Positions 5,895-32,067 of a DNA stretch of 32,178 bases are shown here, one piece after another (the first letter of the stretch is position 1; every line of letters begins with the position of its first letter). The notes under the pieces are model-generated. The model was not told where the DNA came from. It saw only the letters and a list, made by a program, of their open reading frames with translations, and searched no databases. This stretch comes from an uncultured Erysipelotrichaceae bacterium (lineage in GTDB: Bacteria > Bacillota_I > Bacilli_A > Erysipelotrichales > Erysipelotrichaceae): NCBI GenBank assembly GCA_902793635.1, contig CADBEA010000026.1:1-32178 (forward strand). The letters run 5' to 3'. A program made the translations under genes and the position numbers.

Positions 5895-5987
5895 GATGAC
5901 GAAAAAGTGGCAGAAAACACGATTGTAAATATCCATTATTTTTTTCAGAAAGTTCTTCCCAAAGGTGTAAAAAATGTGAAAAAACTA

Positions 5988-6016
5988 TTGTTTAAAGAGA
6001 TGCCTATGAATATAAT
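5988..6016 (+). promoter_or_regulatory. promoter of peptide-uptake operon 1
   Basis: TTGTTT (5988-5993), a 17-bp spacer and a perfect TATAAT (6011-6016) form a good sigma-A promoter, with a predicted start at about 6023. The -10 box is the left arm of a perfect dyad TATAATT-CT-AATTATA (6011-6026), which could be an operator. Confidence 0.7.
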
Positions 6017-6025
6017 TCTAATTAT

Positions 6026-6055
6026 AGTTGGAGTTTTTTGCAGGAAACTCCGGCT
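6026..6055 (+). promoter_or_regulatory. predicted 5'-terminal mRNA stem-loop of oppA1
   Basis: AGTTGGAGTTT (6026-6036) pairs along its full 11 nt with AAACTCCGGCT (6045-6055), with two G-U pairs and an 8-nt loop. It begins about 3 nt after the predicted transcription start and ends just before the GAGAGGG ribosome site. 5'-terminal stem-loops of this kind are known to stabilise abundant mRNAs in other bacteria; that role here is inferred. Confidence 0.55.
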
Positions 6056-6077
6056 GGAAAAAAAGAGAGGGAAAAAA

Positions 6078-7715
6078 ATGAACAAGAAGTTATTGGTTTC
6101 TGCTCTGAGTTCCGTTCTCGCTCTGTCTGCACTGGCTGGATGCTCCAATCCGACAGCCAACACAGGCGGCGGCACAGAACCGACACAGGGCGAACAGACA
6201 CTGCGCTTCGGTCTGAGCGGATTCGAAGGCGTGTTTGACCCGATTCTGTCCGACAACGTTTATGACAATTATGTATGTTCCTTAATTTTCGAAGGTCTGA
6301 TTACAAATGACCCGACAGGTGAAGTTGCTATGAAACTGGCTGACCACGTTGATCTGTCTGAAGACAAACTGACTTACACCTTCACACTGAAGGATGGCAT
6401 CAAGTTCTCTGATGGCACACCGTGTACAGCAGAAGACGTTGCATTCACTTACAACACAATTAAAGAACCTGACTATGCAGGCCCGCGTACAGCTGTAGGT
6501 GCTGCTATTGCCGACATCAAGGTTATTGATGAAAAGACAATCGCATTCACAATGACAGATCCGTCTCCGGCAAACCTGCTGAACAACTTCACATACGGTA
6601 TCATGTCCAAGGATCACTATGCACACAGCAACTTCGAAGAGCTCGCAGCTCTGAACGACAAGCCGCTGGGCACAGGTCCGGTTGTTCTTGATGGCTGGGC
6701 TGCCAAGCAGTATGTCAGCATGGTCAAGAATGAAAACTACTGGGATGCTGAAAACGCTCTGAAGATCGACGGCGTTCTGTTCCAGAACGTTGAAGAAGAT
6801 GCTATTCTCGCTGCTCTGCAGAATGGCGAAATCGACTTCTGCCAGCCGGCTGCTAAGGCTGAGAACGTTGAAGCTGTTGAAGGCATGGACAATGCTCACC
6901 TGGTCAGCTACCTGGCTAACGGTTACACATTCATGTGCTTCAACACAACAAGACCGACCCTGTCCGACGTCAAAGTCCGTCAGGCTCTGGTTTATGCATT
7001 AGACCGTCCGAGCTTCCTGCAGGCTGAATACGGTTCTGATCAGTTAGTTTCCTTAGGTATGTGCCCGATTTCTCCGACTTCCTGGGCTTATCCGGATGTC
7101 AGCGACCTGAACGCATATTCCTATGACCTCGAAAAAGCAGCTGCTCTGCTCGACGAAGCAGGCTGCGTTGACACAGATGGCGACGGTATCCGTGAAATGA
7201 ACGGCGAACCGATGCACCTGCGTTGGCTGGTTTACCCGGAAGCTACATGGCCGGGAACACTGTCTGGTATGGCTTATGACTCCTGGAAGCAGATCGGCGT
7301 TGACCTCGAAATCGTTCAGATGGACTTCAACACAGTCGCTGCTACAGCTATGGATGCTGAACCAGGCCAGAAAGATTTCGACATCTACACAATGGGCTTC
7401 TCTCTGAGCATCGACCCGGATCCGACAGGCGGTCTGTTCGACGCTGACGCTTACAGCGCAGGCGGCTTCAACGCTTCTGGTTTCCGTGATGACAGATCTC
7501 AGGAACTGATCAAGCTGGGTCTCCAGGAATTCGATCAGGAAAAGCGTGCTGAAATCTATAAGGAATGGGCTGCTCGTCAGAACGAACTCGTTCCGACTCT
7601 GATCGTTGCTTACAGATCTGAGATCTGGGGCATCAACAACCGTGTACATGGTCTGGATGACATCGGTGTCTACACAGACTTCACACAGCTCATCTCCAAA
7701 GTTACACTTGACTGA
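6078..7715 (+). CDS. oppA: oligopeptide ABC transporter substrate-binding lipoprotein
   Basis: A 545-residue SBP_bac_5 family solute receptor that captures peptides outside the cell for the OppBCDF transporter. The signal peptide MNKKLLVSALSSVLALSALA is followed by a lipobox LAGC, with lipidated Cys22. A Gly/Thr-rich linker follows, then the mature fold: the 'LTYTFTLKDGIKFSDGTPCTAEDVAFTY' region, split here into its LKDGIKFSDGTP core, is the classical family signature. A frame opens earlier (5907), but ATG 6078 is the true start because it begins the signal peptide and has a GAGAGGG site. Codon use is strongly biased (Thr nearly always ACA, Ala mostly GCT/GCA), unlike its neighbours, which fits very high expression. 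A strong hairpin follows the gene. Peptide rather than another solute is inferred from the adjacent peptidase. Confidence 0.93.
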   Translation: MNKKLLVSALSSVLALSALAGCSNPTANTGGGTEPTQGEQTLRFGLSGFEGVFDPILSDNVYDNYVCSLIFEGLITNDPTGEVAMKLADHVDLSEDKLTYTFTLKDGIKFSDGTPCTAEDVAFTYNTIKEPDYAGPRTAVGAAIADIKVIDEKTIAFTMTDPSPANLLNNFTYGIMSKDHYAHSNFEELAALNDKPLGTGPVVLDGWAAKQYVSMVKNENYWDAENALKIDGVLFQNVEEDAILAALQNGEIDFCQPAAKAENVEAVEGMDNAHLVSYLANGYTFMCFNTTRPTLSDVKVRQALVYALDRPSFLQAEYGSDQLVSLGMCPISPTSWAYPDVSDLNAYSYDLEKAAALLDEAGCVDTDGDGIREMNGEPMHLRWLVYPEATWPGTLSGMAYDSWKQIGVDLEIVQMDFNTVAATAMDAEPGQKDFDIYTMGFSLSIDPDPTGGLFDADAYSAGGFNASGFRDDRSQELIKLGLQEFDQEKRAEIYKEWAARQNELVPTLIVAYRSEIWGINNRVHGLDDIGVYTDFTQLISKVTLD

Positions 7716-7748
7716 TCAGGTTTCACTGGTTAAAAACGTGTAATTAAC

Positions 7749-7788
7749 ATCGGCAGTGTTGTTCTGCTCAAGAAACAGCACTGCCGAT
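7749..7788 (+). terminator. intercistronic hairpin between oppA1 and oppB1
   Basis: ATCGGCAGTGTTGTT (7749-7763) pairs with AACAGCACTGCCGAT (7774-7788), 15 bp with one G-U, around a 10-nt loop. The following tail (TCATTGCTTTATTC) is only moderately T-rich. It probably works as a partial terminator or 3' stabiliser that makes the receptor more abundant than the membrane and ATPase subunits. No new promoter is obvious before oppB1. Confidence 0.7.
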
Positions 7789-7870
7789 TCATTGCTTTAT
7801 TCATTTCTCAACATTTGCCAATATATTTTGCATAACATTGAGAAAATATTTTGGAAAGGAATTGATTATT

Positions 7871-8836
7871 ATGAAAAACTATATAATCAGAAGACTCCTT
7901 CAGATCATTCCGGTATTCCTCGGCATTCTGTTTATTCTGTTCTTCATTGTAGACAAAGCACCGGGCGGTATCACATCCAACATTATGGACCCGAAAATGA
8001 CGCCGGAACTGAAGGCTGCCCTGAAGGCGAAACTGGACCCTGATCTGCCATTCTATGTAAAGTTCTGGAACTGGCTGGTTGAGGCTGCCCACGGCAATTT
8101 CGGTTTCTCCCAGAAGCATTACAGACCGGTACTCGATGTTATTAAAGACAATATTGGCTGTACATTTGCTTTATCACTGATCGCCATGATCTTCTCGATG
8201 CTGCTGGGTATTCCTGCCGGTATTATCAGTGCGACAAAACAGTATTCACACCTCGACAACTTCCTGACAGTATTCTCACTGATCGGTCTGGCTTTCCCGA
8301 CTTTCTTCCTGGGATTGCTGCTCCTGAAGGTTTTTGCCGTCGATCTGAAATGGCTGCCGTCGTTTGGCCTGAGTGATCCGAAACTTGCCAATGCACCGTT
8401 CTTTACACGTCTGGGTGACTATGCTTATCATCTGATTCTTCCTTCTCTGGTACTTGGTCTCGCTGAAACAGCAAGCTTCATGCGTTACACACGTTCCAGT
8501 ATGCTGGAAGTTATCCGTTCTGACTATATCCGTACAGCCCGTGCCAAGGGTCTGTCCGAAAAGGTCGTTATTTACAAGCATGCATTCCGCAATGCCATGA
8601 TTCCGATCATCACACTGATTGGTTTCCGTATCCCAGGTCTGATTTCCGGTGCGGTTATGACAGAAACGATCTTCTCATTGCCGGGTGTCGGCAAACTGGC
8701 TGTTGAAGCGACAACCACCAGAAACTATCCGCTTCTGATCGGTATCAACGCCATGCTGACACTTACGACATTGTTCGCAACACTGGTCGCCGACCTGCTG
8801 TATGCGGCAGTCGACCCGCGTATTAAATATGACTAA
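7871..8836 (+). CDS. oppB: peptide ABC transporter permease OppB
   Basis: A 321-residue inner-membrane permease of the DppB/OppB type. It has an N-terminal membrane segment beginning at IIRRLLQIIPVFLGILF, a periplasm-facing loop carrying the 'PGG' and 'DPDLPFYVKFWNWL' features, and about five further segments. The EAA coupling motif is in YIRTARAKGLSEKVVIYKHA, where it contacts the ATPases. I chose ATG 7871 over an upstream frame start at 7838 because AAAGGA precedes it at 7854-7859 and homologues begin at this point. It pairs with OppC, whose start is 15 bp downstream. It lies behind the intercistronic hairpin. Confidence 0.93.
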   Translation: MKNYIIRRLLQIIPVFLGILFILFFIVDKAPGGITSNIMDPKMTPELKAALKAKLDPDLPFYVKFWNWLVEAAHGNFGFSQKHYRPVLDVIKDNIGCTFALSLIAMIFSMLLGIPAGIISATKQYSHLDNFLTVFSLIGLAFPTFFLGLLLLKVFAVDLKWLPSFGLSDPKLANAPFFTRLGDYAYHLILPSLVLGLAETASFMRYTRSSMLEVIRSDYIRTARAKGLSEKVVIYKHAFRNAMIPIITLIGFRIPGLISGAVMTETIFSLPGVGKLAVEATTTRNYPLLIGINAMLTLTTLFATLVADLLYAAVDPRIKYD

Positions 8837-8851
8837 GGAGGTAGCTTACTT

Positions 8852-9745
8852 ATGACAACATTATCCCGTAATGAACAGATTAAGCTGGCTGCCAAGAAAG
8901 ATTCATACTGGCGCGGTGTCTGGAGACGTCTGAAGCAGAACCGTCTGGCCATGGTTTCCCTGGTCATTCTGGCAGTTATTATCCTGGCCTGCATCTTCGT
9001 TCCGATGTTCTCTGGTTATTCCATGTATCAGACTGCACCGGCTGAAGCCAACCAGGCTCCGAATCCGGCACACCTGCTGGGTACCGACAAGATCGGACGT
9101 GACCTGTTTGTCCGTCTGTTCTACGGCGGCCGTATTTCCCTGGGTGTCGCGGTAGCTGTTACTGCTCTGGAATGTGTGATCGGTGTTATTCTCGGATCTA
9201 TTTCCGGTTTCTTCGGCGGTCTTGCCGATACGATCATCATGCGTATATCGGAAATCTTCATGAGTTTCCCGTTCCTGATGATCTGTATCACACTGCAGTC
9301 GGTCTTCGGAAACTCTATTCCGACACTGATCGTAATTCTGGCCGTTCTTTCCTGGCCGAGTATTGCCCGTATCGTCCGTGGTCAGATCCTTTCCTTAAGA
9401 GAAATGGATTACATGGAAGCCTGCCGCGCTCTTGGTATTTCCAATAAGCAGCAGATCTTCAAGCACCTGTTCCCGAACGTTCTGGCTTACATCATCGTTT
9501 ACGTAACACTGTCTATGGCAAGTGTTATTCTGACAGAAACATCACTGAGCTTCCTTGGTCTGGGCGTTAACCCGCCGACACCGACCTGGGGCAACCTGAT
9601 TCAGGAAGCCCGTAACCTGCTGGTTCTGCAGCAGAAGTGGTGGTACTGGGTACCGCCGGGAACTGCGATTTTCTTAACAATTCTGTGTTTCAACATCTTA
9701 GGCGACGGCTTACGTGATGCCATCGACCCGAAGATGCAGAAGTAA
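8852..9745 (+). CDS. oppC: peptide ABC transporter permease OppC
   Basis: A 297-residue second permease of the transporter. It begins with the typical OppC cytosolic leader ending in WRRLKQNRLAMVSL, followed by a first membrane segment and the GTDKIGRDLFVRLFYGGRISL block that marks DppC/OppC proteins. Several further segments follow, with the EAA motif in YMEACRALGISNKQQIFKHL and the C-terminal GLRDAIDPK end. AAGGAGG lies directly upstream of the ATG. The next gene starts 15 bp after its stop. It forms the membrane pore with OppB. Confidence 0.94.
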   Translation: MTTLSRNEQIKLAAKKDSYWRGVWRRLKQNRLAMVSLVILAVIILACIFVPMFSGYSMYQTAPAEANQAPNPAHLLGTDKIGRDLFVRLFYGGRISLGVAVAVTALECVIGVILGSISGFFGGLADTIIMRISEIFMSFPFLMICITLQSVFGNSIPTLIVILAVLSWPSIARIVRGQILSLREMDYMEACRALGISNKQQIFKHLFPNVLAYIIVYVTLSMASVILTETSLSFLGLGVNPPTPTWGNLIQEARNLLVLQQKWWYWVPPGTAIFLTILCFNILGDGLRDAIDPKMQK

Positions 9746-9760
9746 GGGGAGGTGGAAAGA

Positions 9761-10750
9761 ATGACTGAAAATAAAAGAACACCGCTCCTGCAGGTTAAGA
9801 ATCTGAAAACCTACTTTCACAGCAACTCCGGTCTTGTAAAAGCCGTAGATGATGTTTCATTCGAAGTATATCAGGGTGAAACGCTGGGTATCGTAGGTGA
9901 GTCCGGATGCGGTAAATCCATTACATGTATGTCCCTTGCTCAGCTGGTTGAGTGCCCGCCGGGAAAATATGAAGGCGGTGAGATCCTGCTGGACGGCCAG
10001 GACATGCTGAAACTGTCCGACGTTGAACTGCGTAAGATCCGCGGTAACAAGATTTCCTATATTTTCCAGGAACCGATGACATCCCTGAACCCGGTCTTCA
10101 AGATCGGCTATCAGATTGAAGAAGTTCTGATGCTGCACCAGGGACTGTCCAAGGAAGAAGCCCGTGCCAGAGCGATCGAAGCTCTGGACCTGGTCCGTAT
10201 TCCGAACCCGGAACGTATCGTCGATGAATATCCGTTCGCTCTGTCCGGCGGTATGCGTCAGCGTGTCATGATTGCCATGGCTCTGGCCTGCAATCCGAAA
10301 CTGCTGGTTGCCGACGAACCGACAACGGCTCTGGACGTTACGATCCAGGCACAGGTTCTGGATCTGATGAACGATCTGAAGAAAAAGATCGATACATCCA
10401 TTCTGTTTATCACACATGACCTTTCCGTCATTGCTGAAATGGCTGACCGTGTCATGGTTATGTATGCCGGTAAAGTCGTTGAACTTGCTGACGTCAATAC
10501 GATTTTCGAGAATCCTCTTCATCCGTATACACGCGGTCTGATCGGATCACGTCCGGACATGAGCACAAACGCTTCACGTCTGAATGTTATTCCCGGAAAC
10601 GTTCCTGACCTTTCCGATCTGCCGGAAGGATGCTCGTTCGGTCCGCGCTGCAGCCTTGTCTGTGATCAGTGCAAAGCCGGAATACCTGAACTCGTTGAAG
10701 TTGAGCCGGGTCATTTCGTACGCTGCTTTGTAACGGGAGGTAAGAAATAA
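9761..10750 (+). CDS. oppD: peptide ABC transporter ATP-binding protein OppD
   Basis: A 329-residue ATPase. Walker A is GESGCGKS (Gly46-Ser53), the signature is LSGGMRQR, Walker B is [12 protein letters not shown], and the H-switch is ITHDLS. The C-terminal oligopeptide-transporter domain carries CX5CX6C plus a final Cys, the spacing associated with a [4Fe-4S] cluster in mycobacterial OppD. A GTG at 9752 is in frame, but it lies inside the AGGGGAGG ribosome site (9745-9752); ATG 9761 is correctly spaced from that site and is the likely start. The stop shares one base with the ATG of oppF (TAATG). It forms the motor heterodimer with OppF. Confidence 0.94.
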
Positions 10751-11757
10751 TGACAACTGAGAACAAAAATCTGATTGAAGTTCGCCATTTAAAGAAATAC
10801 TTCCCGATCAAAGGCGGTGTCTTCAAGAGCAAGATCGGTGATGTCAAAGCCGTTGACGATGTCTCGTTTGTCATCCCAAAGGGCAAGGTCATGGGCCTGG
10901 TAGGTGAATCCGGATGCGGCAAGTCCACGACCGGACGCACACTGCTCAGACTGCTTGAGCCGACAGCCGGTGAAATGCTTTATGACGGCACGGATATCTT
11001 CAAGCTCAACAATGCTGAACTGAAGAAGTACCGCACAAAGATGCAGATCGTTTTCCAGGACCCGTATTCTTCACTGAATCCGCGTCTGCCGATCTATGAC
11101 ATCATCGGTGAAGCCATGCTTGAACACAAGCTGGTTGCCAACCGTGAAGAAATGATGAACAAGGTCTATGAACTGATGGACAAGTGCGGACTGTTCCCGG
11201 AACAGGCCGGCCGTTATCCGCATCAGTTCTCAGGCGGCCAGCGTCAGCGTATCTGCATTGCCAGAGCACTGGCTGTTGATCCGGAATTCGTCGTCTGCGA
11301 CGAAGCCGTTTCCGCCCTTGACGTATCCATTCAGTCTCAGATCATCAACCTGCTGAAAGACCTGCAGGAAGACCTGGGCCTGACATATCTGTTCATCTCG
11401 CATGACCTGTCAGTCGTTAAGTTCATCTCCGACTCCGTCGGTGTCATGTATCTGGGTGAAATCGTTGAAATGGGCTCCAAGGAACAGATCTTTACCCATT
11501 TCGCACATCCTTATACGGAAGCTCTGCTGTCCGCCGCGCCGTCCTTCGACCCGCGCAAGCGCAACAACGCAAACCGTATCATTCTGCAGGGTGATCTGCC
11601 TTCACCGAGCAATCCGCCGAGCGGATGCCGTTTCCATACTCGCTGCCCGTTTGCGACAGAGAAGTGCAAGGCTGAAGTTCCGGAAACTTATGAGATCGAA
11701 CCGGGTCATACAGTCAAGTGTCATTTCGCGCACGAAAGAGCAGCGAAAAGAGGCTGA
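10750..11757 (+). CDS. oppF: peptide ABC transporter ATP-binding protein OppF
   Basis: A 335-residue ATPase partner of OppD. Walker A is GESGCGKS (Gly52-Ser59), the Q-loop is [12 protein letters not shown], the signature is FSGGQRQR, Walker B is [12 protein letters not shown] with Ala after the catalytic Glu where Pro is more usual, and the H-switch is ISHDLS. The C-terminal domain has CX5CX6C and a last Cys. Translation is coupled to oppD through a one-base TAATG overlap. Eight bases after its stop begins a small membrane-protein gene, so the operon continues. Confidence 0.94.
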
Positions 11758-16595: not shown

Positions 16596-18278
16596 ATGAA
16601 AAAGTCAGTATCTCTTTTGCTCTCCGGTGTACTGGCCTTAGGCCTGGTTGGCTGCTCCGGCAACGGCGGCGGCGAAACACAGCCGACAGGCGGTGACACA
16701 CCGGCAAGCGACTCTTCAACCTTGACAATCGCTATCGCGATGCAGTTTGACACACTGGATCCGGCATTGTCCACAACTGTCTATAACGCATATGTTATCG
16801 ACTCCATCTATGCCGGTCTTCTGAGACTGGGTGATGACAACCTGCCGCATCCGGATCTGGCTGAGGGGTACAGCATTTCCGACGATGGTCTGGAATGGAC
16901 ATTCAACCTCCGCAAAGATGCAGTATTCACAGACGGCACACCGATCAAAGCTGAAAACTATGTATTCACAGTACTGCGTGCTCTGTCCTATGGTACAGAA
17001 AATGCATTCCGTACAAGTTCTCTGTGCCAGTACATTGTTGGTGCTGAAGAATATCGTAACCATGCTGTTGAAGTCGGCGCAAGCTTCGACTGTCTGACAG
17101 AAGATCACAGTGGTGTCGGTGTTGAAGCAGTTGACGACTACACACTCGTTTACAAGCTGAAGACTCCGGTTCCGTACTTTGACCTCAACGTATGCGGCGG
17201 CGGCGTATTCTCTCCGCTTCCGACAAACACTCCTCAGCATGACTCCGTATGGGCACTGACACCGGGTTATCCGACAAATGGTGCTTACACACTGGAATCC
17301 ATCGATCTGAACGACAAGGCTGTTGTTGTTAAGAGCGATTCTTACTGGAACAAAGACGCTGTCAAGATGGAAAAACTCGTATGGCAGGTCGTTGCTGATC
17401 CGAACGCCCAGATGGCTCAGTTCGAATCCGGCGACATCGACGTTGCTCTGAGTGTTCCGACAGAAGCAGTTGAAAAGTACCTCGGTACTGAAAATCTGTG
17501 GAGCATGATGTATCCGTCCACATATTCTCTGTGCGTCAACTCCGGTCCGACAGGTCCTGAAGCTCTGAAAGACAAGAATGTCCGTAAGGCTCTGTACATT
17601 GCTCTGGATAAAGAAGCTATCGTTAACGTAATCGGCAACACGGATCTGTATCCGCTGCTTGAAGGTTATGTACCGTTCGGTCTCCCGGGCGTTGATGGTG
17701 ACTTCCGTACAGAAAGAGACAAGGAAGGCTATGACCTCCATTATGATCCGGAAGAAGCAGTCAGACTGCTGAACGAAGCCGGCTATGATGAGAACAACAA
17801 GCTGCATATCACATACAAGTATTCCAAGAACAGCTTCCACGAGGATGTTGCTACAGTACTGCAGAGCCAGTGGGCAGCTCTCGGATGTGTCGATGTTGAC
17901 TTCGACGCTTGCGAAGGTAATGTATACTACAGCCAGATCGACGAAGGCGCTATCGAAATCGGCCGTTATGGTCTGCAGACAGATGACTCAGCTATGACTA
18001 TGCTGAAGAACTGGACAGCAGTTAACCTCGTAACACCGCTGATGGATACACCTAAGCAGGAAGTATTCGATCAGATGATCAACGACGCTTGGGCTGTCGC
18101 TGCTGATCCGACTGCTTTCGCAGAAGCTCTGCATAAGGCTGAAGATTACCTGGTTCAGGAAGAAGTCCTGCAGTTCCCGCTGTTCCAGTTCGCACAGGCT
18201 GGTCTGGTTCAGTCCAACGTTCATGATTACAAGCTGCACATCGCAACTCTGGACTTCATGAGCTGCACAAAGGACTAA
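16596..18278 (+). CDS. oppA: second peptide ABC transporter substrate-binding lipoprotein
   Basis: A 560-residue SBP_bac_5 receptor. The signal peptide ends in the lipobox LVGC with lipidated Cys20, followed by a Gly-rich linker, and the mature domain carries the family signature LEWTFNLRKDAVFTDGTP. It is not a recent duplicate of the receptor at 6078, as similarity is limited to family motifs. Codon use is again strongly biased (Thr ACA, Ala GCT/GCA), consistent with its consensus promoter and abundant expression. AGGGG lies upstream of the ATG. The rest of its transporter begins 207 bp downstream after a structured intergenic region. The ligand is probably a peptide, but a dipeptide, nickel chelate or other SBP_bac_5 ligand cannot be excluded. 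Confidence 0.92.
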   Translation: MKKSVSLLLSGVLALGLVGCSGNGGGETQPTGGDTPASDSSTLTIAIAMQFDTLDPALSTTVYNAYVIDSIYAGLLRLGDDNLPHPDLAEGYSISDDGLEWTFNLRKDAVFTDGTPIKAENYVFTVLRALSYGTENAFRTSSLCQYIVGAEEYRNHAVEVGASFDCLTEDHSGVGVEAVDDYTLVYKLKTPVPYFDLNVCGGGVFSPLPTNTPQHDSVWALTPGYPTNGAYTLESIDLNDKAVVVKSDSYWNKDAVKMEKLVWQVVADPNAQMAQFESGDIDVALSVPTEAVEKYLGTENLWSMMYPSTYSLCVNSGPTGPEALKDKNVRKALYIALDKEAIVNVIGNTDLYPLLEGYVPFGLPGVDGDFRTERDKEGYDLHYDPEEAVRLLNEAGYDENNKLHITYKYSKNSFHEDVATVLQSQWAALGCVDVDFDACEGNVYYSQIDEGAIEIGRYGLQTDDSAMTMLKNWTAVNLVTPLMDTPKQEVFDQMINDAWAVAADPTAFAEALHKAEDYLVQEEVLQFPLFQFAQAGLVQSNVHDYKLHIATLDFMSCTKD

Positions 18279-18319
18279 GCTGGAATCAAACACAAAACTT
18301 AAAGTTTAAAGCACGATTG

Positions 18320-18357
18320 ATATTGAGAGGAACGTCTTCGGGCGCTCCTCTCAGTAT
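18320..18357 (+). terminator. long hairpin with a UUCG tetraloop after oppA2
   Basis: Seventeen base pairs with a single A/C mismatch fold 18320-18357 into one stem closed by C(UUCG)G, an exceptionally stable tetraloop. Only three T residues follow, so it is a better 3' stabiliser or partial terminator than a full stop. Confidence 0.7.
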
Positions 18358-18371
18358 TTCGTATAAGAGTG

Positions 18372-18465
18372 CGGACATACAGTCCGTTCTTCGTCTGTCC
18401 TGGTAAACAAAGGCAGGCGCTTGTTTACGAAGAGAAACGAAGAATGACTGCAGACATGTCTGCAG
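18372..18465 (+). promoter_or_regulatory. structured leader with nested inverted repeats before oppB2
   Basis: Four elements lie in a row: CGGAC/GTCCG (18372-18386); an outer pair TTCTTCGT (18387-18394) with ACGAAGAA (18437-18444); nested within it GTAAACAA (18403-18410) with TTGTTTAC (18421-18428); and the perfect 18-bp palindrome CTGCAGACATGTCTGCAG (18448-18465). It does not match a riboswitch class I recognise. It could be an RNA control element or a protein operator. Confidence 0.5.
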
Positions 18466-18482
18466 AAAGAAAAGAGGGATGA
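18444..18482 (+). CDS. possible 12-codon leader peptide before oppB2
   Basis: ATG at 18444 opens a frame encoding MTADMSAERKEG and stops at a TGA (18480-18482) three bases before the oppB2 ATG. The frame overlaps the palindrome and the ribosome site of oppB2. It has only a weak upstream GAAG-type site. It is short enough to be chance. Confidence 0.2.
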   Translation: MTADMSAERKEG

Positions 18483-18485
18483 AAT

Positions 18486-19406
18486 ATGCTCAAATACATA
18501 GGAAAACGACTGCTAATGGGCGTGGCGACACTGTTTGCCTTGATGACGATTACTTTTTTTCTGATGCACATGATTCCCGGTTCACCGTTTGCCGGTGAAA
18601 CCCAGGGACTCTCGGCAGCAGCGAAACAGCAGATCATCGAAGCATACCAGCTGGATAAGCCGATTTATGTCCAGTATATGACCTACCTGAAGAATTTCTT
18701 CAGCGGCCAGCTTGGCACATCCACAGCCCGTAAAGGTGTTCCGATCACGATGATCATCGCCAACGGTTTGCCCTATACTGCCAAAGTCGGTCTTTCCGCA
18801 TTCATCACGGCTATGGTTCTCGGCATTCTGCTGGGTGCTGTATCGGCATTCTCGAAAAAAGCCTGGATCCAGGGTCTCTCAGCGTTCGTGGCAACGATCG
18901 GTGTCAGTGTGCCGAGCTTCCTGTTCGCACTGTTCCTGATGTATCTGTTCGGTGTAAACATGAAACTTCTGCCGATCATGGGTCTGAAATCATGGAAGCA
19001 CTACATTATGCCGTCTCTGGCTCTGGCGCTTTCTCCGATTGCCATGATCTCACGTCTGACCCGCAGTTCCCTTTCCGAAGAACTGAGACAGGACTACATG
19101 ATCCTTGCCCTCAGTAAGGGTACTTCGTATAAGAAGGCTGTTTATAAGCATGCCCTGAAGAACGCGATCATTCCGGTCGTCACCTATGCAGGTCCGCTGC
19201 TTGCGACATTGCTGACAGGTTCGTTCGTTGTCGAATCCCTGTTCACGATTCCTGGCATCGGTTCCGAATTCGTAGCCAGTGTATCCGGCCGTGACTATCC
19301 GCTGATCATGGCGCTGACTGTCCTGTACGGCTCACTGGTCATTCTGGCTAATATCCTGACCGATATTATCAGTGCGTTGATCGATCCGCGTATCCGTCTG
19401 AAGTAG
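18486..19406 (+). CDS. oppB: second peptide ABC transporter permease, OppB-type
   Basis: A 306-residue permease with the DppB/OppB layout: an N-terminal segment starting IGKRLLMGVATLFALMTITF, the PGSPFAGE loop, and about five more membrane segments. The EAA coupling motif is in YMILALSKGTSYKKAVYKHA, and the end is ALIDPRIRLK. AAGAGGG lies 7-8 nt before the ATG. The gene is preceded by a 207-bp leader full of inverted repeats, which is likely to set its expression relative to oppA2. The OppC-type partner begins 11 bp after its stop. Confidence 0.93.
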   Translation: MLKYIGKRLLMGVATLFALMTITFFLMHMIPGSPFAGETQGLSAAAKQQIIEAYQLDKPIYVQYMTYLKNFFSGQLGTSTARKGVPITMIIANGLPYTAKVGLSAFITAMVLGILLGAVSAFSKKAWIQGLSAFVATIGVSVPSFLFALFLMYLFGVNMKLLPIMGLKSWKHYIMPSLALALSPIAMISRLTRSSLSEELRQDYMILALSKGTSYKKAVYKHALKNAIIPVVTYAGPLLATLLTGSFVVESLFTIPGIGSEFVASVSGRDYPLIMALTVLYGSLVILANILTDIISALIDPRIRLK

Positions 19407-19417
19407 GAGGTGAAAGC

Positions 19418-20356
19418 ATGAGTGAAGCTGAAGTAAAAATGGTTCTGCCGGAGAATGCTTTTGAAAAACTCCCGGAAGATGAGAAGAATAACGAATTTAT
19501 CGCGATGAAATCACGCTCCTATTTCCAGGACGTCTGGTTTCAGTACAAGAAAAACAAACTGGCTATGGTCAGTCTGGTCTTCATTATCATCATGATCCTG
19601 ATGGCGATCTTCATGCCGATGTTCTCACGCTACAGCTATGAGGCACAGGATCTGGCGAACCCGAATGCTCTGCCAAGTGCGGCACACTGGTTCGGAACCG
19701 ACAAGTTCGGCCGTGATATCTTCATCCGTATCATGTACGGTGCCCGTATCTCCCTGTCAGTAGGTTTTGCGGCAGCGGCGATCAACCTGGTCATCGGTAT
19801 TGTCTGGGGCGGCATGTGCGGCTATATCGGCGGCAGATTCGACATGATCCTGATGCGTATCGTCGATATCATCTATTCCGTACCGACATTGCTGTACGTC
19901 ATTCTGATCATGCTGATCTTCGGATCTAACATGTTCTCGGTGCTGTTAGCGATCTGTATATCCTCCTGGGTAGGTCTGGCCCGTCAGGTCAGAGCTCAGG
20001 TCATGTCCCAGAAAGAACAGGAATATGCACTGGCTGCCAAGGTCCTTGGTGCCAGTGACATGCGCATCCTGTTCCGTCACCTGGTTAAAAACTCCATCGG
20101 GCCGATCATCGTCAATACGACCCTGATGGTTCCGAGTGCGATCTTCACCGAAGCGTTCCTTTCCTTCGTAGGTATCGGTATCAGTATTCCGATGGCTTCC
20201 TGGGGAACCATGGCCAACGAGGCCAAGAACATGCTGTTCTCAGCACCGCTGCAGATGGTATGGCCGGTATCGGCGATCTGTCTGACCATGCTGGCTCTGA
20301 ACTTTATCGGTGACGGCCTGAACCAGGCGCTTGACCCGAAGAAACGTTCACGCTGA
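19418..20356 (+). CDS. oppC: second peptide ABC transporter permease, OppC-type
   Basis: A 312-residue permease. It has a longer acidic N-terminal leader (about 40 residues) than OppC of operon 1, then FQYKKNKLAMVSL and the first membrane segment, the WFGTDKFGRDIFIRIMYGAR block, and the EAA motif in YALAAKVLGASDMRILFRHL. The C-terminus is GLNQALDPK. TAGGAGGTG gives a strong ribosome site. The third ATPase gene begins only 3 bp after its stop. Confidence 0.93.
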   Translation: MSEAEVKMVLPENAFEKLPEDEKNNEFIAMKSRSYFQDVWFQYKKNKLAMVSLVFIIIMILMAIFMPMFSRYSYEAQDLANPNALPSAAHWFGTDKFGRDIFIRIMYGARISLSVGFAAAAINLVIGIVWGGMCGYIGGRFDMILMRIVDIIYSVPTLLYVILIMLIFGSNMFSVLLAICISSWVGLARQVRAQVMSQKEQEYALAAKVLGASDMRILFRHLVKNSIGPIIVNTTLMVPSAIFTEAFLSFVGIGISIPMASWGTMANEAKNMLFSAPLQMVWPVSAICLTMLALNFIGDGLNQALDPKKRSR

Positions 20357-20359
20357 TCT

Positions 20360-21121
20360 ATGACGTTTCTGAAAGTGGAACAGCTTTCCATTCACGCGGA
20401 AAAAGAAGAAGGCGACATCCGGCTTCTGAAAAGTGTTTCGCTGGAAATGGAAAAAGGCGAACGGACGGCTCTTTTGGGACATTCCGGCAGCGGCAAGACA
20501 ACCCTTGCCAATGCCATTATGGGATTTCTCAAGGCGGGTACCTTCTGCGATTACGGCACAGTGACCTTTGACGGAATCGTCAATGTTCCGAAACAGCTCG
20601 GTCTTGACTTCCTTGACAATGATCCCTTTGCAGAGATCAGAGGAAAACGTATGGCCTATGTCATGCAGAATGTGAAGGATGCTTTCGATCCGACAGAAAA
20701 GATCGGTGCATATATCGCTGAGTTATTTCCGGATGACGGTTTCTTCGAAAGAAAAAAGAAAGTCATTTCCTTTCTTGAAAAAGCAGGAATCAGCGATCCG
20801 AAAAAAGTCAGCCGGTCCTCACCGCAGGAAGTATCTGTCGGGGAACTGCAGAAGATCATGATCATGACGGCGCTTGCCAAAGATCCGGAACTGGTCATTC
20901 TTGACGAACCGTTCTCCGCACTTGATCCGCTGTCAAAGCAGCAGATGATCGAAGAACTGCAAAAACACGAAAGTATGGGAATCTTTCTGATTACCCATGA
21001 GCCGGAAACGGCGAAAAATCTATGCACTTCCTGCCTGTTTATGGCGGAAGGCAAAGTCAGTGAAAAACGGAATACGGCGGATCTGTCCACGCAGGAAATG
21101 GTCAGCTGTATGGAAGTATAA
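20360..21121 (+). CDS. additional short ABC transporter ATPase with degenerate signature motif
   Basis: A 253-residue ABC ATPase inserted between the permeases and OppD2/OppF2. Walker A GHSGSGKT (Gly40-Thr47), Q-loop Gln103, Walker B with Asp182-Glu183, D-loop SALD and H-switch His213 are all intact. The signature LSGGQ is replaced by Val158-Ser-Val-Gly-Glu162. It lacks the C-terminal oligopeptide-transporter domain and its cysteines, and its length resembles NikD-like subunits. It has no clear ribosome site and starts 3 bp after oppC2, so it depends on translational coupling. It may replace OppD2 in an alternative motor or form a third, regulatory subunit; the sequence cannot decide. Confidence 0.88.
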   Translation: MTFLKVEQLSIHAEKEEGDIRLLKSVSLEMEKGERTALLGHSGSGKTTLANAIMGFLKAGTFCDYGTVTFDGIVNVPKQLGLDFLDNDPFAEIRGKRMAYVMQNVKDAFDPTEKIGAYIAELFPDDGFFERKKKVISFLEKAGISDPKKVSRSSPQEVSVGELQKIMIMTALAKDPELVILDEPFSALDPLSKQQMIEELQKHESMGIFLITHEPETAKNLCTSCLFMAEGKVSEKRNTADLSTQEMVSCMEV

Positions 21122-21145
21122 ACGGAAACAGAGAGGTGGAAGCAT

Positions 21146-22147
21146 ATGGCACTACTTGAAGTTGAAAATCTGAAGACAGATTTTACCACCGATCAGGGAA
21201 TGGTACATGCAGTCAGAGATGTTACCTTTTCGGTCGAACAGGGCGAAGCTCTCGGAATCGTTGGTGAGTCCGGTTCGGGAAAAAGCCAGACAATGTATTC
21301 GATTATCGGTCTGCTCGCAGATAACGGTATCGTAAACGCGAAACGTATCACTTTTGACGGCAAAGATATCGCACCCGAAAACTTTGCGAATAAAAAGACA
21401 TACGAAGACGCCATGAAGGATATCCGCGGAAATACCATGGCCATGATTTTCCAGGATCCGATGACGTTCCTGAATCCGATCATGAAAATCGGCGATCAGC
21501 TGACGGAAACAATTATGAATCATAACAAAGTTTCCGAGAAAGATGCTCATGAACTCGCTCTTGAACTGATGCGCAAGGTCGGCATTCCTTCACCGGAAAA
21601 GAGAATCAATCAGTATCCGTTTGAATTCTCCGGCGGTATGCGCCAGCGTATTATCATCGCGATTGCCCTGGCCAACAATCCGAAGCTGATCATCGCCGAC
21701 GAACCGACGACTGCTCTGGACGTTACGATTCAGGCGCAGGTTCTCGAACTGATCGACGAACTGAAGAAAAACAGCGGTTCAGCGGTTATCATGATTACGC
21801 ATGACCTTGGTGTCGTTGCCAAGCTCTGCGACCGCATTGCCATTATGTACGGCGGCAAGATCGTGGAAATCGGAACCGACAAGGAAATCTTCTACGATCC
21901 GAAGCATCCGTATACAAAGGGTCTTCTGAACTGCATTGCCAATCCGGATGAGGATGACGATAAGGAACTGGAACCGATCCCCGGATCACCGCCGGATCTG
22001 CTGAATCCTCCTAAGGGATGCCCGTTTGTCGACCGCTGTACGGAAGCTATGCGGGTATGTAAGGAATATCAGCCGGACGTGACAAAGTTCACGGAAACCC
22101 ATCAGTGTGCATGCTGGCTGTGCCATGAAAAGGCGGTGACAAAATGA
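21146..22147 (+). CDS. oppD: second peptide ABC transporter ATP-binding protein, OppD-type
   Basis: A 333-residue ATPase: Walker A GESGSGKS (Gly40-Ser47), Q-loop [11 protein letters not shown], signature FSGGMRQR, Walker [13 protein letters not shown] and H-switch ITHDLG. The C-terminal domain has CX5CX6C and further cysteines at the end, as expected for the [4Fe-4S]-type tail of OppD proteins. GAGAGGTGG lies before the ATG. The stop overlaps the start of the OppF-type gene by four bases (ATGA). It is diverged from the OppD of operon 1. Confidence 0.94.
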
Positions 22148-23121
22148 GTGAGAAACCGATTTTAAGTGTACGTAATCTGAAGACATACTTTGATGTGACC
22201 AAAGGCCTTTTCAGCAAGAAACAGATCGTTAAGGCAGTTGATGATGTATCCTTTGACGTTATGCCGAATGAAACATTCGGTCTGGTCGGTGAGTCAGGCT
22301 GCGGCAAGACAACACTGGGACGTACCATTGTAAAACTGTACGATCCGGTCGAAGGCAGCATTGAATTCATGGGCAAGGATATCGCCAACCTGAAAGGTGC
22401 GGAACTGAAAGCCTACCGTAAGGATATGCAGATGATCTTCCAGGATCCGTATGCGTCATTGAATCCCCGTATGACCGTCGGTGAAATCATCAAGGAACCG
22501 ATGATCATTCACAACATCTATAACACCGATGCCGAGCGTGAAGAACGTGTCGTTGAACTGCTCCGCATCGTCGGTCTGAAACCGGACCATATCCGCCGTT
22601 ATCCGGCTGAATTTTCCGGCGGTCAGAGACAGCGTATCGGTATTGCGAGAGCCCTTGCAGTCAACCCGAAGTTCATTGTCTGTGACGAACCGATCTCAGC
22701 GCTGGACGTATCGATTCAGGCTCAGGTCATCAATCTTTTGGAAAACATTCAGAAAGAAATGGGACTGTCCTATCTGTTCATCGCTCATGACCTGAGCATG
22801 GTCAAACATATCTCCGATAAGATCGGTGTCATGTATCTTGGCCACATGGTTGAAATGGGAAAGAGCGAAGACGTTTATCACCGGCCGCTGCATCCGTATA
22901 CAACGGCGCTGCTGTCAGCAATCCCGATTCCTGATCCTGATGTGGCCAAAGCCAAGTCGCGTATTCTTCTGGAAGGGGAAATCCCCAGCCCGATCAATCC
23001 GCCGGCCGGCTGTCCTTTCTCAACCAGATGCCCGAAGGCAACCGAGAGATGTCATAAGGAAATGCCGCAGCCGATCGAAGTCGGCGGCCGTATGGTTGCA
23101 TGTCATCTGTATGAGCGTTAA
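22144..23121 (+). CDS. oppF: second peptide ABC transporter ATP-binding protein, OppF-type
   Basis: A 325-residue ATPase: Walker A GESGCGKT (Gly49-Thr56), Q-loop [12 protein letters not shown], signature FSGGQRQR, Walker [13 protein letters not shown] and H-switch IAHDLS. The C-terminal CX5CX6C plus a final Cys matches the other D/F subunits in the window. It is translationally coupled to the upstream ATPase by an ATGA overlap. No terminator lies between it and gmk, 26 bp downstream, so the kinase is probably in the same transcript. Confidence 0.94.
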
Positions 23122-29776: not shown

Positions 29777-29782
29777 TATAAT
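29777..29782 (+). promoter_or_regulatory. putative -10 box for the Gln-rich protein gene
   Basis: A perfect TATAAT lies 20 nt before ATG 29802. There is no convincing -35 at 16-18 bp. The predicted start (about 29789) falls on the AGGAGA ribosome site, giving a very short leader. It shares a 77-bp divergent region with the addBA promoter. Confidence 0.4.
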
Positions 29783-29801
29783 AGAACCAGGAGAATTGAT
29801 T

Positions 29802-30872
29802 ATGACAAATACAAATGATAATGTAACAAGAGTATTCCATGCTTTCGAAGAGAACCCGGCAGCCATGAGCGATCTGCTGAAAGGTGATGAAAAAGAAGTC
29901 ATCCGTTCTGTTCTGAATGACGAATCCCTCAGTGACGAGGAACTGCAGGAAGTTGTCCGTGAGGTCAACGATAACAATGTCATGAAACTGTATCTTTGCG
30001 CGGACGGTCAGATCGACGGCCAGCAGCTGCTGGAACAGACCGGCGGTTTCACTTCCGTGGAGAGAGGCAAGAAAACCGATGCGATCGGCGCATTGCTGGA
30101 CGGCAAACTGGATATCAAGGATCTGCTGGCTCTGATCACCCTGATGAGCGGCGGTCAGTCTTCCCAGGCTTCCTCCCAGACTGCCGGCGGCCTGCTCAGC
30201 ACTCTGCTGGGCGGTTCCCAGTCCCAGCAGCAGACATCCAGCCCGGCATCTCTGTTCTCACAGCTGCTCGGCGCTCAGCCGGCTCAGCAGCCGCAGGCGC
30301 AGCAGCAGACACCGTCGCTGTTCTCAAGCCTCTTCGGCACACAGCAGCAGTCTCAGCAGACCCAGCAGAACAGCAATGAACAGCTGAATGCTCTCCTGCA
30401 GACTCTGATGGCTCAGCAGCAGACCCTTCAGGCGCAGCAGCAGTCCCAGCAGGCTCTGCAGAATGCACAGCAGCAGACCCTTCAGGCCCAGCAGCAGTCT
30501 CAGCAGTCCCAGCAGCCGCAGGCTCAGACAATGAGCGGTCTGCTCGGTTCACTGTTCGGCCAGATCGTCGAAGCCCAGCAGCAGGCACCGCAGCAGACTC
30601 AGCAGTCCCAGCAGCCTCAAGGCGGTCTGCTCAGTCAGCTGCTTTCCGGCGGCCAGCAGAGCCAGTCTTCATCATCACAGATGCAGAACAGCGCGGTTCT
30701 CAATCAGCCGCTCTTTACCGAAGCTCCTTCAGCCAACACATCCACCGGTTCCACTGTCAATAACCAGGCGCTGAACCAGTTCCTCGGTTCCAGTCCGACC
30801 AACAGCAACGGTACCGTCAATGTCGGTTCGATGTTTGATCTGATCAACATCCTGATGGGAGCCAAGCAGTAA
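29802..30872 (+). CDS. Gln-rich low-complexity protein with repeated hydrophobic motifs
   Basis: A 356-residue protein I do not recognise. Residues 1-120 look folded: helical, acidic, with a DEKEVIRSVLNDESLSDEELQ-like helix pair and a short strand YLCADGQIDG. Residues about 138-274 are 41% Gln by count (55 of 135), with Ser, Ala, Thr and Pro making up most of the rest, and almost all Gln codons are CAG. Five copies of a motif [GS]-L-[LF]-[SG]-x-L-[LF]-[GS] occur at residues 130, 150, 172, 246 and 275. The C-terminus (about 285-356) is Ser/Asn-rich and ends in a hydrophobic helix. ATG 29802 has AGGAGA 7 nt upstream. The next gene begins 1 base after its stop. The architecture resembles prion-like, phase-separating proteins; function unknown. 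Confidence 0.85.
   Translation: MTNTNDNVTRVFHAFEENPAAMSDLLKGDEKEVIRSVLNDESLSDEELQEVVREVNDNNVMKLYLCADGQIDGQQLLEQTGGFTSVERGKKTDAIGALLDGKLDIKDLLALITLMSGGQSSQASSQTAGGLLSTLLGGSQSQQQTSSPASLFSQLLGAQPAQQPQAQQQTPSLFSSLFGTQQQSQQTQQNSNEQLNALLQTLMAQQQTLQAQQQSQQALQNAQQQTLQAQQQSQQSQQPQAQTMSGLLGSLFGQIVEAQQQAPQQTQQSQQPQGGLLSQLLSGGQQSQSSSSQMQNSAVLNQPLFTEAPSANTSTGSTVNNQALNQFLGSSPTNSNGTVNVGSMFDLINILMGAKQ
30414..30506 (+). repeat. 39-bp direct repeat within the Gln-rich gene
   Basis: A 13-codon unit (QQQTLQAQQQSQQ) occurs at 30414-30452 and 30468-30506 with two synonymous differences (GCG/GCC and TCC/TCT) and a 15-bp spacer, giving a 54-bp period. CAG runs make the tract prone to slippage. Confidence 0.85.
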
Positions 30873-30873
30873 T

Positions 30874-31119
30874 ATGCCGCGCGAATTTACTTACGAGATC
30901 GAAGAAGAGATCGCAACGCTTTCTTCTTACGAAGGTGCCCGCGGCCGCGTCTACAGCAAGGAACTTTCCCTGATTTCCTATAATGGCGCCAATGCTGTCT
31001 ACGATATCCGCAACTGGACGGACTACCATGATGAGGAAGCCCGGATGGGTAAAGGCATCACGCTGAACAGGGAAGAACTGAAAGCTCTGCGTGACGCGCT
31101 GAACGGGATGGATCTGTAA
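30874..31119 (+). CDS. ydbC: PC4/YdbC-type ssDNA-binding protein
   Basis: An 81-residue protein matching the YdbC family, bacterial relatives of the PC4 transcription coactivator that bind single-stranded DNA as dimers. Features are the N-terminal strand FTYEIEEEIATLSS, the KELSLISYNGANAVYDIRNW block and the HDEEARMGKGITLNREELKAL end; the MGKGITL motif is the clearest link. It starts one base after the stop of the Gln-rich gene (TAATATG), so the two are made together by coupled translation. Neighbouring addAB and the ssDNA-binding role suggest a DNA-repair or recombination context, which is inference. Confidence 0.9.
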   Translation: MPREFTYEIEEEIATLSSYEGARGRVYSKELSLISYNGANAVYDIRNWTDYHDEEARMGKGITLNREELKALRDALNGMDL

Positions 31120-31141
31120 ACCGCATGGATTGCATGCATTA

Positions 31142-31170
31142 TTGTCATGATTTCTGATAAAATATAGTTT
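31142..31170 (+). promoter_or_regulatory. putative promoter of sepF
   Basis: TTGTCA (31142-31147) with TATAGT (31163-31168) at a 15-bp spacing, or an extended -10 TGATAAAAT (31155-31163) without a good -35. Either would start a transcript just upstream of the GAGGTG ribosome site of sepF. Confidence 0.4.
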
Positions 31171-31191
31171 AGTTAATGTGAGGTGAATTAT

Positions 31192-31554
31192 ATGGGCTGG
31201 AAAGACATGTTTGCTACAGCAGAAGATATTGAAGATACACAGCCGGTCGTAACAGCAGCCGCTGCTCCGGCCGCTGCGACTACCGCAGCCGTCGGCGGTG
31301 CGATCGCTCTGTTCGAACCGCGTACGTTTGATGAGGCGACAATGATCGCTGACAAGATCAAGAACGGCAGTGCGGCCGCCGTCAACCTGCACCGTCTGTC
31401 AAAGGACTATGCACAGAGAACGATCGATTTCCTGACCGGTGTTGTCTACGCACTGAACGGCCGTATTGAAAAAGTCGGCCACAATCTGATTCTCTGTTCG
31501 CCGGCTTCCATGAAACTGTCGGGCGTCATCGAAATGAACCGTGACGCGGAATAA
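31192..31554 (+). CDS. sepF: cell division protein SepF
   Basis: A 120-residue SepF, the FtsZ-binding, membrane-attached protein that aligns the Z-ring in Gram-positive bacteria. The short N-terminus MGWKDMF is the membrane-binding helix, followed by an acidic and then Ala-rich linker (about residues 20-40). The C-terminal domain begins ALFEPRTFDEATMIADKIK and contains AAVNLHRLSKDYAQRTIDFL and GVVYALNGRIEKVG, all diagnostic. I chose ATG 31192 over a GTG at 31183 because that GTG lies within the AGGTG ribosome site. In many Bacillota sepF sits upstream of ylmG/ylmH and divIVA; here an unrecognised gene follows instead. Confidence 0.94.
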   Translation: MGWKDMFATAEDIEDTQPVVTAAAAPAAATTAAVGGAIALFEPRTFDEATMIADKIKNGSAAAVNLHRLSKDYAQRTIDFLTGVVYALNGRIEKVGHNLILCSPASMKLSGVIEMNRDAE

Positions 31555-31572: not shown

Positions 31573-32067
31573 ATGCACATTTATCCGATTTATAAGAATA
31601 CCCGCAGAGATATCATCGAATGTGCAACGTTTCTCAATGATGAGATCTGTTTGAAGGCTTATATCAAAAGAGAGCCTTCCATCGTTACATATATCGATGT
31701 TGCCAACATTCATCTGAAGAGTGATTTCGATCCGGAAACCACTCTGATCCCGGGTGTGACAAGAAGGATCGTCAAATACCGTGACAGTGATCAGACATTT
31801 GTCGAAATCTGCTGGAATGAGGATGAATCATTTACGCTGCGTTTCCCGGATGAGGAAGTCGACGTAGTACGTCAGAGCCGTTCCGCGTTCGCCTTCAAGA
31901 AAGGTGACCGCACACTGGCGACGATCGGCCGGATCCGTGCCAAAGATACCCGACAGGTTGGCCGTGAAACCTATGAAACAGTATATGATACGGAAGCGGA
32001 AGAAGACATTTCCCAGCAGGCATTATATGTCCTGTGGTGCTTCCCGATTCTCTACTTCGGTTTCTGA
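31573..32067 (+). CDS. unrecognised protein downstream of sepF
   Basis: A 164-residue protein I cannot place. It is rich in beta-strand-like alternation; the segment FAFKKGDRTLATIGRIRAKD has the feel of a Tubby/LURP-like strand pair, but this is a weak impression. It has no signal peptide; the C-terminus ends in a hydrophobic ALYVLWCFPILYFGF stretch too short and aromatic for a typical membrane anchor. AAGAGGT lies about 8 nt before the ATG, 18 bp after sepF, so it is probably co-transcribed with it. A link to cell division is suggested only by position. Confidence 0.8.
   Translation: MHIYPIYKNTRRDIIECATFLNDEICLKAYIKREPSIVTYIDVANIHLKSDFDPETTLIPGVTRRIVKYRDSDQTFVEICWNEDESFTLRFPDEEVDVVRQSRSAFAFKKGDRTLATIGRIRAKDTRQVGRETYETVYDTEAEEDISQQALYVLWCFPILYFGF

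Follow-up and report, generated by a model that had tools for sequence, protein, structure and literature searches.

A low-complexity protein with selectively maintained hydrophobic stickers in an Erysipelotrichaceae bacterium

The gene and its genomic setting

The window, a 32,178-nucleotide stretch of DNA from an uncultured Erysipelotrichaceae bacterium, carries on its forward strand an open reading frame of 356 codons plus stop (29802..30872) that begins with ATG at position 29802. A putative -10 element, TATAAT (29777..29782), and a good Shine-Dalgarno sequence, AGGAG (29789..29793), precede it on the same strand. Both are assigned from sequence and from their recurrence in the two nearest relatives (L002 and L003), where TATAAT and GGAG are identically spaced. 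No good -35 element was found upstream of the frame, and a consensus promoter scan made no call there. Purifying selection acts on every segment of the coding sequence, and the frame is thus a real gene rather than a fortuitous run of CAG. CAG slippage as the origin of the tract was ruled out, since CAG is the glutamine codon genome-wide (86 CAG to 1 CAA in the ribosomal genes of the same genome), and the CAG monotony of the frame follows from this bias. Its codon adaptation of 0.72, against 0.745 for the ribosomal set, is moderate to good and compatible with an abundant protein. No signal peptide is evident in the 356-residue product, with a maximum 19-residue hydropathy of 1.19, and we infer that the protein is cytoplasmic.

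Directly downstream (30874-31554) lie a gene for a PC4/YdbC-like ssDNA-binding protein, which starts 2 bp after the stop, and then SepF. The PC4 adjacency recurs only in three loci of the same clade (L025-L027) and, upstream of the gene, in L041. A role in division or in the nucleoid was considered on the basis of these neighbours and rejected, since the neighbours differ at nearly all other loci. No conserved enzyme neighbour was found across the relatives' loci. Since conservation of the neighbours does not extend beyond close relatives, the gene stands alone as a functional unit. Elsewhere in the window, a 164-residue reading frame after SepF (31573-32067) has no Pfam or NCBIfam match, and two oligopeptide/dipeptide-type ABC transporter clusters (5907-11757 and 16596-23121) are separated by peptidase and amidohydrolase-like genes, all assigned by eye.

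A predicted folded body and a sticker-bearing tract

The protein begins with a helical N-domain (29802..30155, + strand; residues 1-118) that had been described in an earlier note as folded and acidic. Its composition (23 D+E to 11 K+R) and its predicted helices agree with that description. In an AlphaFold model built on a shallow 32-row alignment, pLDDT is 83-88 over most of the N-domain, mostly below 50 in the tract that follows, and 72-79 in a C-terminal helix (341-353). The N-domain is homologous to a small Erysipelotrichaceae protein of the LGEDGK[LF] type (A6; hhalign probability 96.8, E 2.4e-10, residues 3-84), and none of the library entries provides it with a function. The repeat of these small proteins, [VI]LGEDGK[LF]xKxDxxRxA, occurs in one to three copies per protein in several Erysipelotrichaceae genera (for example L179, L180, L181, L183, L186 and L188), and the members tested have no Pfam match above cut-off.

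Within the N-domain, DG unit 2 (DGQIDGQQLL..., 30003..30056; residues 68-85) has G69 and D72 invariant in 21 of 21 sequences. DG unit 3 (DGKLDIKDLLALITLMSG, 30099..30152; residues 100-117) is the stretch of the protein that best matches its own C-terminal unit (NGTVNVGSMFDLINILMG, 30807..30860; residues 336-353), all three lying on the + strand. When the last ~18 residues of each family protein are compared with all other stretches of its N-terminal part, the best ungapped match falls on an internal DGx[IL]D unit in 20 of 29 proteins, where ~0.5 would be expected. Our reading is that the DG-loop helix unit is present four times and that the low-complexity tract has been inserted between the third and the fourth. 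The only beta-bridge residues in the model are I71, T333 and V339, which leaves the C-terminal segment as the only possible partner of I71. The model of a relative with a tail half as long (L049) has the same arrangement, with I81 against 235/241, and the two models thus agree on a bridge between the N- and C-terminal parts. A closed topology may therefore be envisaged, with the C-terminal unit predicted to dock on the N-domain. Given the position of the tract between units three and four and this predicted pairing, the low-complexity region is probably a looped-out insert. The conserved folded unit that comes after it shows in any case that it is more than a plain C-terminal tail.

The protein has no significant sequence match in the PDB and the folded part of the two models no significant fold match (best Foldseek E 2.0 and 5.7), and VIA-align against seven chains returned none with Z of 2 or more. 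Because the models are of moderate confidence, the absent fold match is weak evidence of novelty. The DG units resemble EF-hands loosely, through general likeness and a predicted loop-loop bridge only. Membership of that family was rejected: EF-hand_7 scores 13.5 bits against a Pfam cut-off of 30, and the loop of unit 2 has no acidic residues at positions 1 and 3, where a canonical calcium-binding loop is acidic at 1, 3, 5 and 12.

The almost uncharged tract (30156..30761, + strand; residues 119-320) consists largely of Q, S, T, G and P and was delimited by composition, shuffles and low pLDDT. Only 3 of its 202 residues are charged (1.5%) and Q+N make up 36%. It is prion-like in composition if this is taken to mean at least 60-80 Q/N-rich residues with almost no charge and predicted disorder. 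Glutamine accounts for 55 of the 137 residues between 138 and 274 (40.1%, close to the 41% reported earlier). Exactly five copies of the motif [GS]-L-[LF]-[SG]-x-L-[LF]-[GS] are present, as the earlier note had counted. These stickers, all on the + strand, are GLLSTLLG (30189..30212; residues 130-137), SLFSQLLG (30249..30272; 150-157), SLFSSLFG (30315..30338; 172-179), GLLGSLFG (30537..30560; 246-253) and GLLSQLLS (30624..30647; 275-282). A degenerate sixth, LNALLQTLMA (30384..30413, + strand; 195-204), coincides with a modelled helix at 193-204. The hydrophobic residues are spaced i, i+1, i+4, i+5, and AlphaFold tends to draw the stickers as short helices of low confidence. When residues 119-320 were shuffled 20,000 times, the motif count averaged 0.0006 and never reached five; a looser pattern of two hydrophobic residues, any two, and two hydrophobic residues again occurs seven times against 0.19 expected, and no shuffle reached seven.

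Comparison with a goat-ileum relative (L025, ~90% identity across the alignment) reveals where selection acts. By the Nei-Gojobori method, on this single pair and with small numbers, dN/dS is 0.060 for the stickers, 0.082 for the N-domain, 0.089 for the C-terminus and 0.272 for the spacers. Nonsynonymous changes amount to 3 in 54 sticker codons and 33.5 in 140 spacer codons. Purifying selection on the stickers is thus as strong as on the folded domain, while the spacers are held more loosely.

A lineage-specific family and a tail shared with DUF937 proteins

No Pfam or NCBIfam entry matches the protein above cut-off; together with the PDB result, this bears out the earlier statement that no family of this layout has been described. 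It belongs to an undescribed family, which in the searches made is confined to a single Erysipelotrichaceae genus from the guts of ruminants. When the N-domain was used as query against 60 relatives, 19 genomes matched, all in the genus of the window. Of 70 genomes from this genus, 40 matched a 21-row profile, mostly through full-length members at ~1-2 copies each; several weaker matches in this count are only to the tails of DUF937 proteins or to proteins that consist of the N-domain alone. Applied to 296 genomes that represent 165 genera of the class, the same profile matched only the window's own genome. A scan of an 84,980-species genome collection yielded 33 loci, every one of them labelled as Erysipelotrichaceae or Solobacterium; most come from ruminant-gut metagenome assemblies, and NK3D112, which is not marked as a MAG, is also represented. 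A phage origin was rejected, as the IMG/VR viral contigs held no relative. The family is missing from nearly half of the genus and is therefore not essential. The genome of the window itself carries a paralogue (G000:C32; L021, L173).

Across 34 family members the tail varies from 3 to 31% Gln and from ~4 to 24% Asn, with Gln swapped for N, Y, S or T. Its layout is kept, with Q+N+S+T+G+P at 58-71% and charge at 1-6%. Because Gln drifts while polarity and low charge persist, the conserved property is not Gln itself but the combination of polar, uncharged spacers with hydrophobic patches of the LLxxLL type. Stickers are significantly enriched in the Q-rich branch, but among the N-rich paralogues, which are shorter, this is true of only about one half. 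In one subclade (L029, L030 and L032), much of the middle of the tail is replaced by a VTLxGxQLxQxM repeat.

The family profile also picked up proteins of this genus that belong to DUF937 (PF06078; YidB-like), with an E of 5.7e-23 for the DUF937 identity. In their C-terminal tails, which contain stretches such as LLGSLFGGNQQQQVQQQPTSLLGSLFGGG and finish with DGSDLLNALTALMK, stickers of the LLGSLFG type and Q/P/S spacers are found again, as is a final LLxxLLxLMK helix; their N-terminal DUF937 domain is unrelated to the N-domain of the window protein by Pfam. With a profile built from family tails alone, 12 DUF937 tails score 13.8-50.5 bits against a maximum of 10.0 for 2,400 shuffled versions of these tails themselves. 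The likeness therefore extends to residue order, beyond composition, and may reflect either common descent or convergence. PF06078 does not match the window protein even at E <= 1, and a similar tail does not qualify it as a DUF937 member. No function for DUF937/YidB was found in the literature searched, so the shared tail names no process.

Among the DUF937 proteins, long Q tails are found for the most part in a single subclade; the remaining copies, including the one in the window's genome, keep about two stickers. A single origin of the long Q-rich tails would agree with the DUF937 domain tree. An apparently complementary distribution of long-tail DUF937 proteins and Q-rich family members (Fisher p 0.025) was rejected as independent evidence because of this possible single origin and because the thresholds were picked post hoc. 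The family and DUF937 co-occur (17 with both, 2, 6, and 11 with neither; p 0.0014, by a statistic that ignores phylogeny). Sticker-like inserts of the form NNLFNILGG...DIMNLLLGTAPAPQQ...NSLNSLLGGG were also seen in Clostripain-like peptidases of ~850 residues with a hydrophobic N-terminal anchor segment (L167 1274-3820, G020:C86; L168 639-3176, G027:C73; and L169), through weak profile matches (E 1e-5 to 1e-3).

Models of sticker function

Several known systems offer points of comparison. Bacterial Q/N-rich prion-like domains occur in clostridial Rho and in SSB C-termini (PMC6400439), and McdB is a glutamine-rich bacterial low-complexity protein (PMC10554743); for Rho (PMC6400439) and McdB (PMC10554743), the tract is linked to assembly or phase separation. 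Like Rho and SSB (PMC6400439) and McdB (PMC10554743), the window protein would place an uncharged, Gln-rich disordered tract beside a folded domain in the cytoplasm. Unlike them, it has regular, conserved LLxxLL stickers and a C-terminal folded unit after the tract, and no homology was found as far as tested. GLFG-type FG nucleoporins bear a superficial resemblance, with repeated LFG/LLG motifs in uncharged Q/N/S/T-rich spacers. The double hydrophobic LLxxLL unit with its helix periodicity is different, there is no nuclear pore context, and the sole PDB profile match, a nuclear pore protein, has a non-significant E of 8. The small LGEDGK[LF]xKxD proteins, one of which is encoded in the same genome (G000:C3), share the homologous N-domain but lack the low-complexity tail and are charged throughout. 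By analogy, the window protein would work most like sticker-and-spacer low-complexity proteins.

The strong selection on the hydrophobic patches and the sharing of the tail with an unrelated protein suggest that the Gln-rich stretch may serve to hold proteins together in the cell. The reading that we prefer, tentatively and at close to even chances, is that of a multivalent cytoplasmic scaffold or adaptor that associates with itself or with others. In this model, three N-terminal DG-loop helical units and the fourth, C-terminal unit would form one small folded body that extrudes a ~200-residue uncharged Q/N/S-rich loop. The five to six short amphipathic LLxxLL(G) segments of the loop would serve as weak multivalent stickers, which may bind one another or the groove that holds the chain's own sticker-like C-terminal helix. 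Copies of the protein would thereby join into a soft network or condensate, which would also take in other tail-bearing proteins such as the paralogue and the DUF937 proteins. The analysis establishes the sequence architecture, the selection on the stickers, the shared tail and the restriction to one lineage, whereas the closed topology, self-association, co-assembly and the condensate state are presumed steps of this model. A bolder version, which we consider improbable, holds that, in a sticker-tail system specific to the genus, at least two unrelated families co-assemble through the LLxxLL/Q-rich module into a shared cytoplasmic condensate, the module being looped out of a new helical DG-repeat fold and able to dock into it in trans as a bacterial counterpart of cohesive GLFG meshworks.

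The chief rival of the scaffold model is a hub for docking clients. Here a partner protein, or the N-domain of another copy, would recognise the LLxxLL segments as short linear motifs, and the protein would be a multivalent adaptor that does not itself phase separate. Short, capped, helix-compatible and strongly conserved motifs between freely evolving spacers do look like docking motifs, and their presence on DUF937 proteins could mean a common reader; however, no such reader can be identified and the gene neighbourhood is not conserved, which leaves docking an unlikely account. Somewhat less likely still is association with a surface, where the amphipathic segments, and also the paralogues' KEILLIILLLKLFKKK helix, would lie on the membrane or on a lipid or polymer inclusion of the kind covered by phasin-like coats. 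The patches are amphipathic, and in the paralogues lysines follow a hydrophobic helix with a 19-residue hydropathy of ~1.6; but the window protein lacks this helix (maximum 1.19), its stickers carry no positive charge, and no inclusion-synthesis gene was recognised near its gene.

A Gln/Asn-driven amyloid or prion-like switch, as the earlier note suggested, draws on the composition of residues 119-320 (36% Q+N, 1.5% charged) and is hard to reconcile with the pattern of constraint. Constraint is weakest in the Gln spacers, which makes amyloid less likely, and selection instead falls on hydrophobic segments whose i, i+1, i+4, i+5 periodicity, helical in AlphaFold, does not point to an amyloid core. 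That note was right about a tract with selectively kept stickers after a folded domain; its emphasis on Gln, which is not conserved among the 34 members, fits only the window protein's branch, and we regard a prion switch as quite improbable. Finally, a neutral low-complexity linker with no binding function would account for the relaxed dN/dS (0.27) and variable length of the spacers but not for the sticker dN/dS (0.06) or the 0 of 20,000 shuffles that reach five copies, and is strongly disfavoured.

We class the protein as a member of an undescribed lineage-specific family whose selectively maintained sticker code is common to two unrelated carriers. To our knowledge, the sequence rules of bacterial condensates are poorly known. 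Close relatives show selection on the hydrophobic stickers, not on the Gln spacers. This sticker-focused selection, together with the same tail on two unrelated carriers, makes a sticker-spacer model genetically testable.
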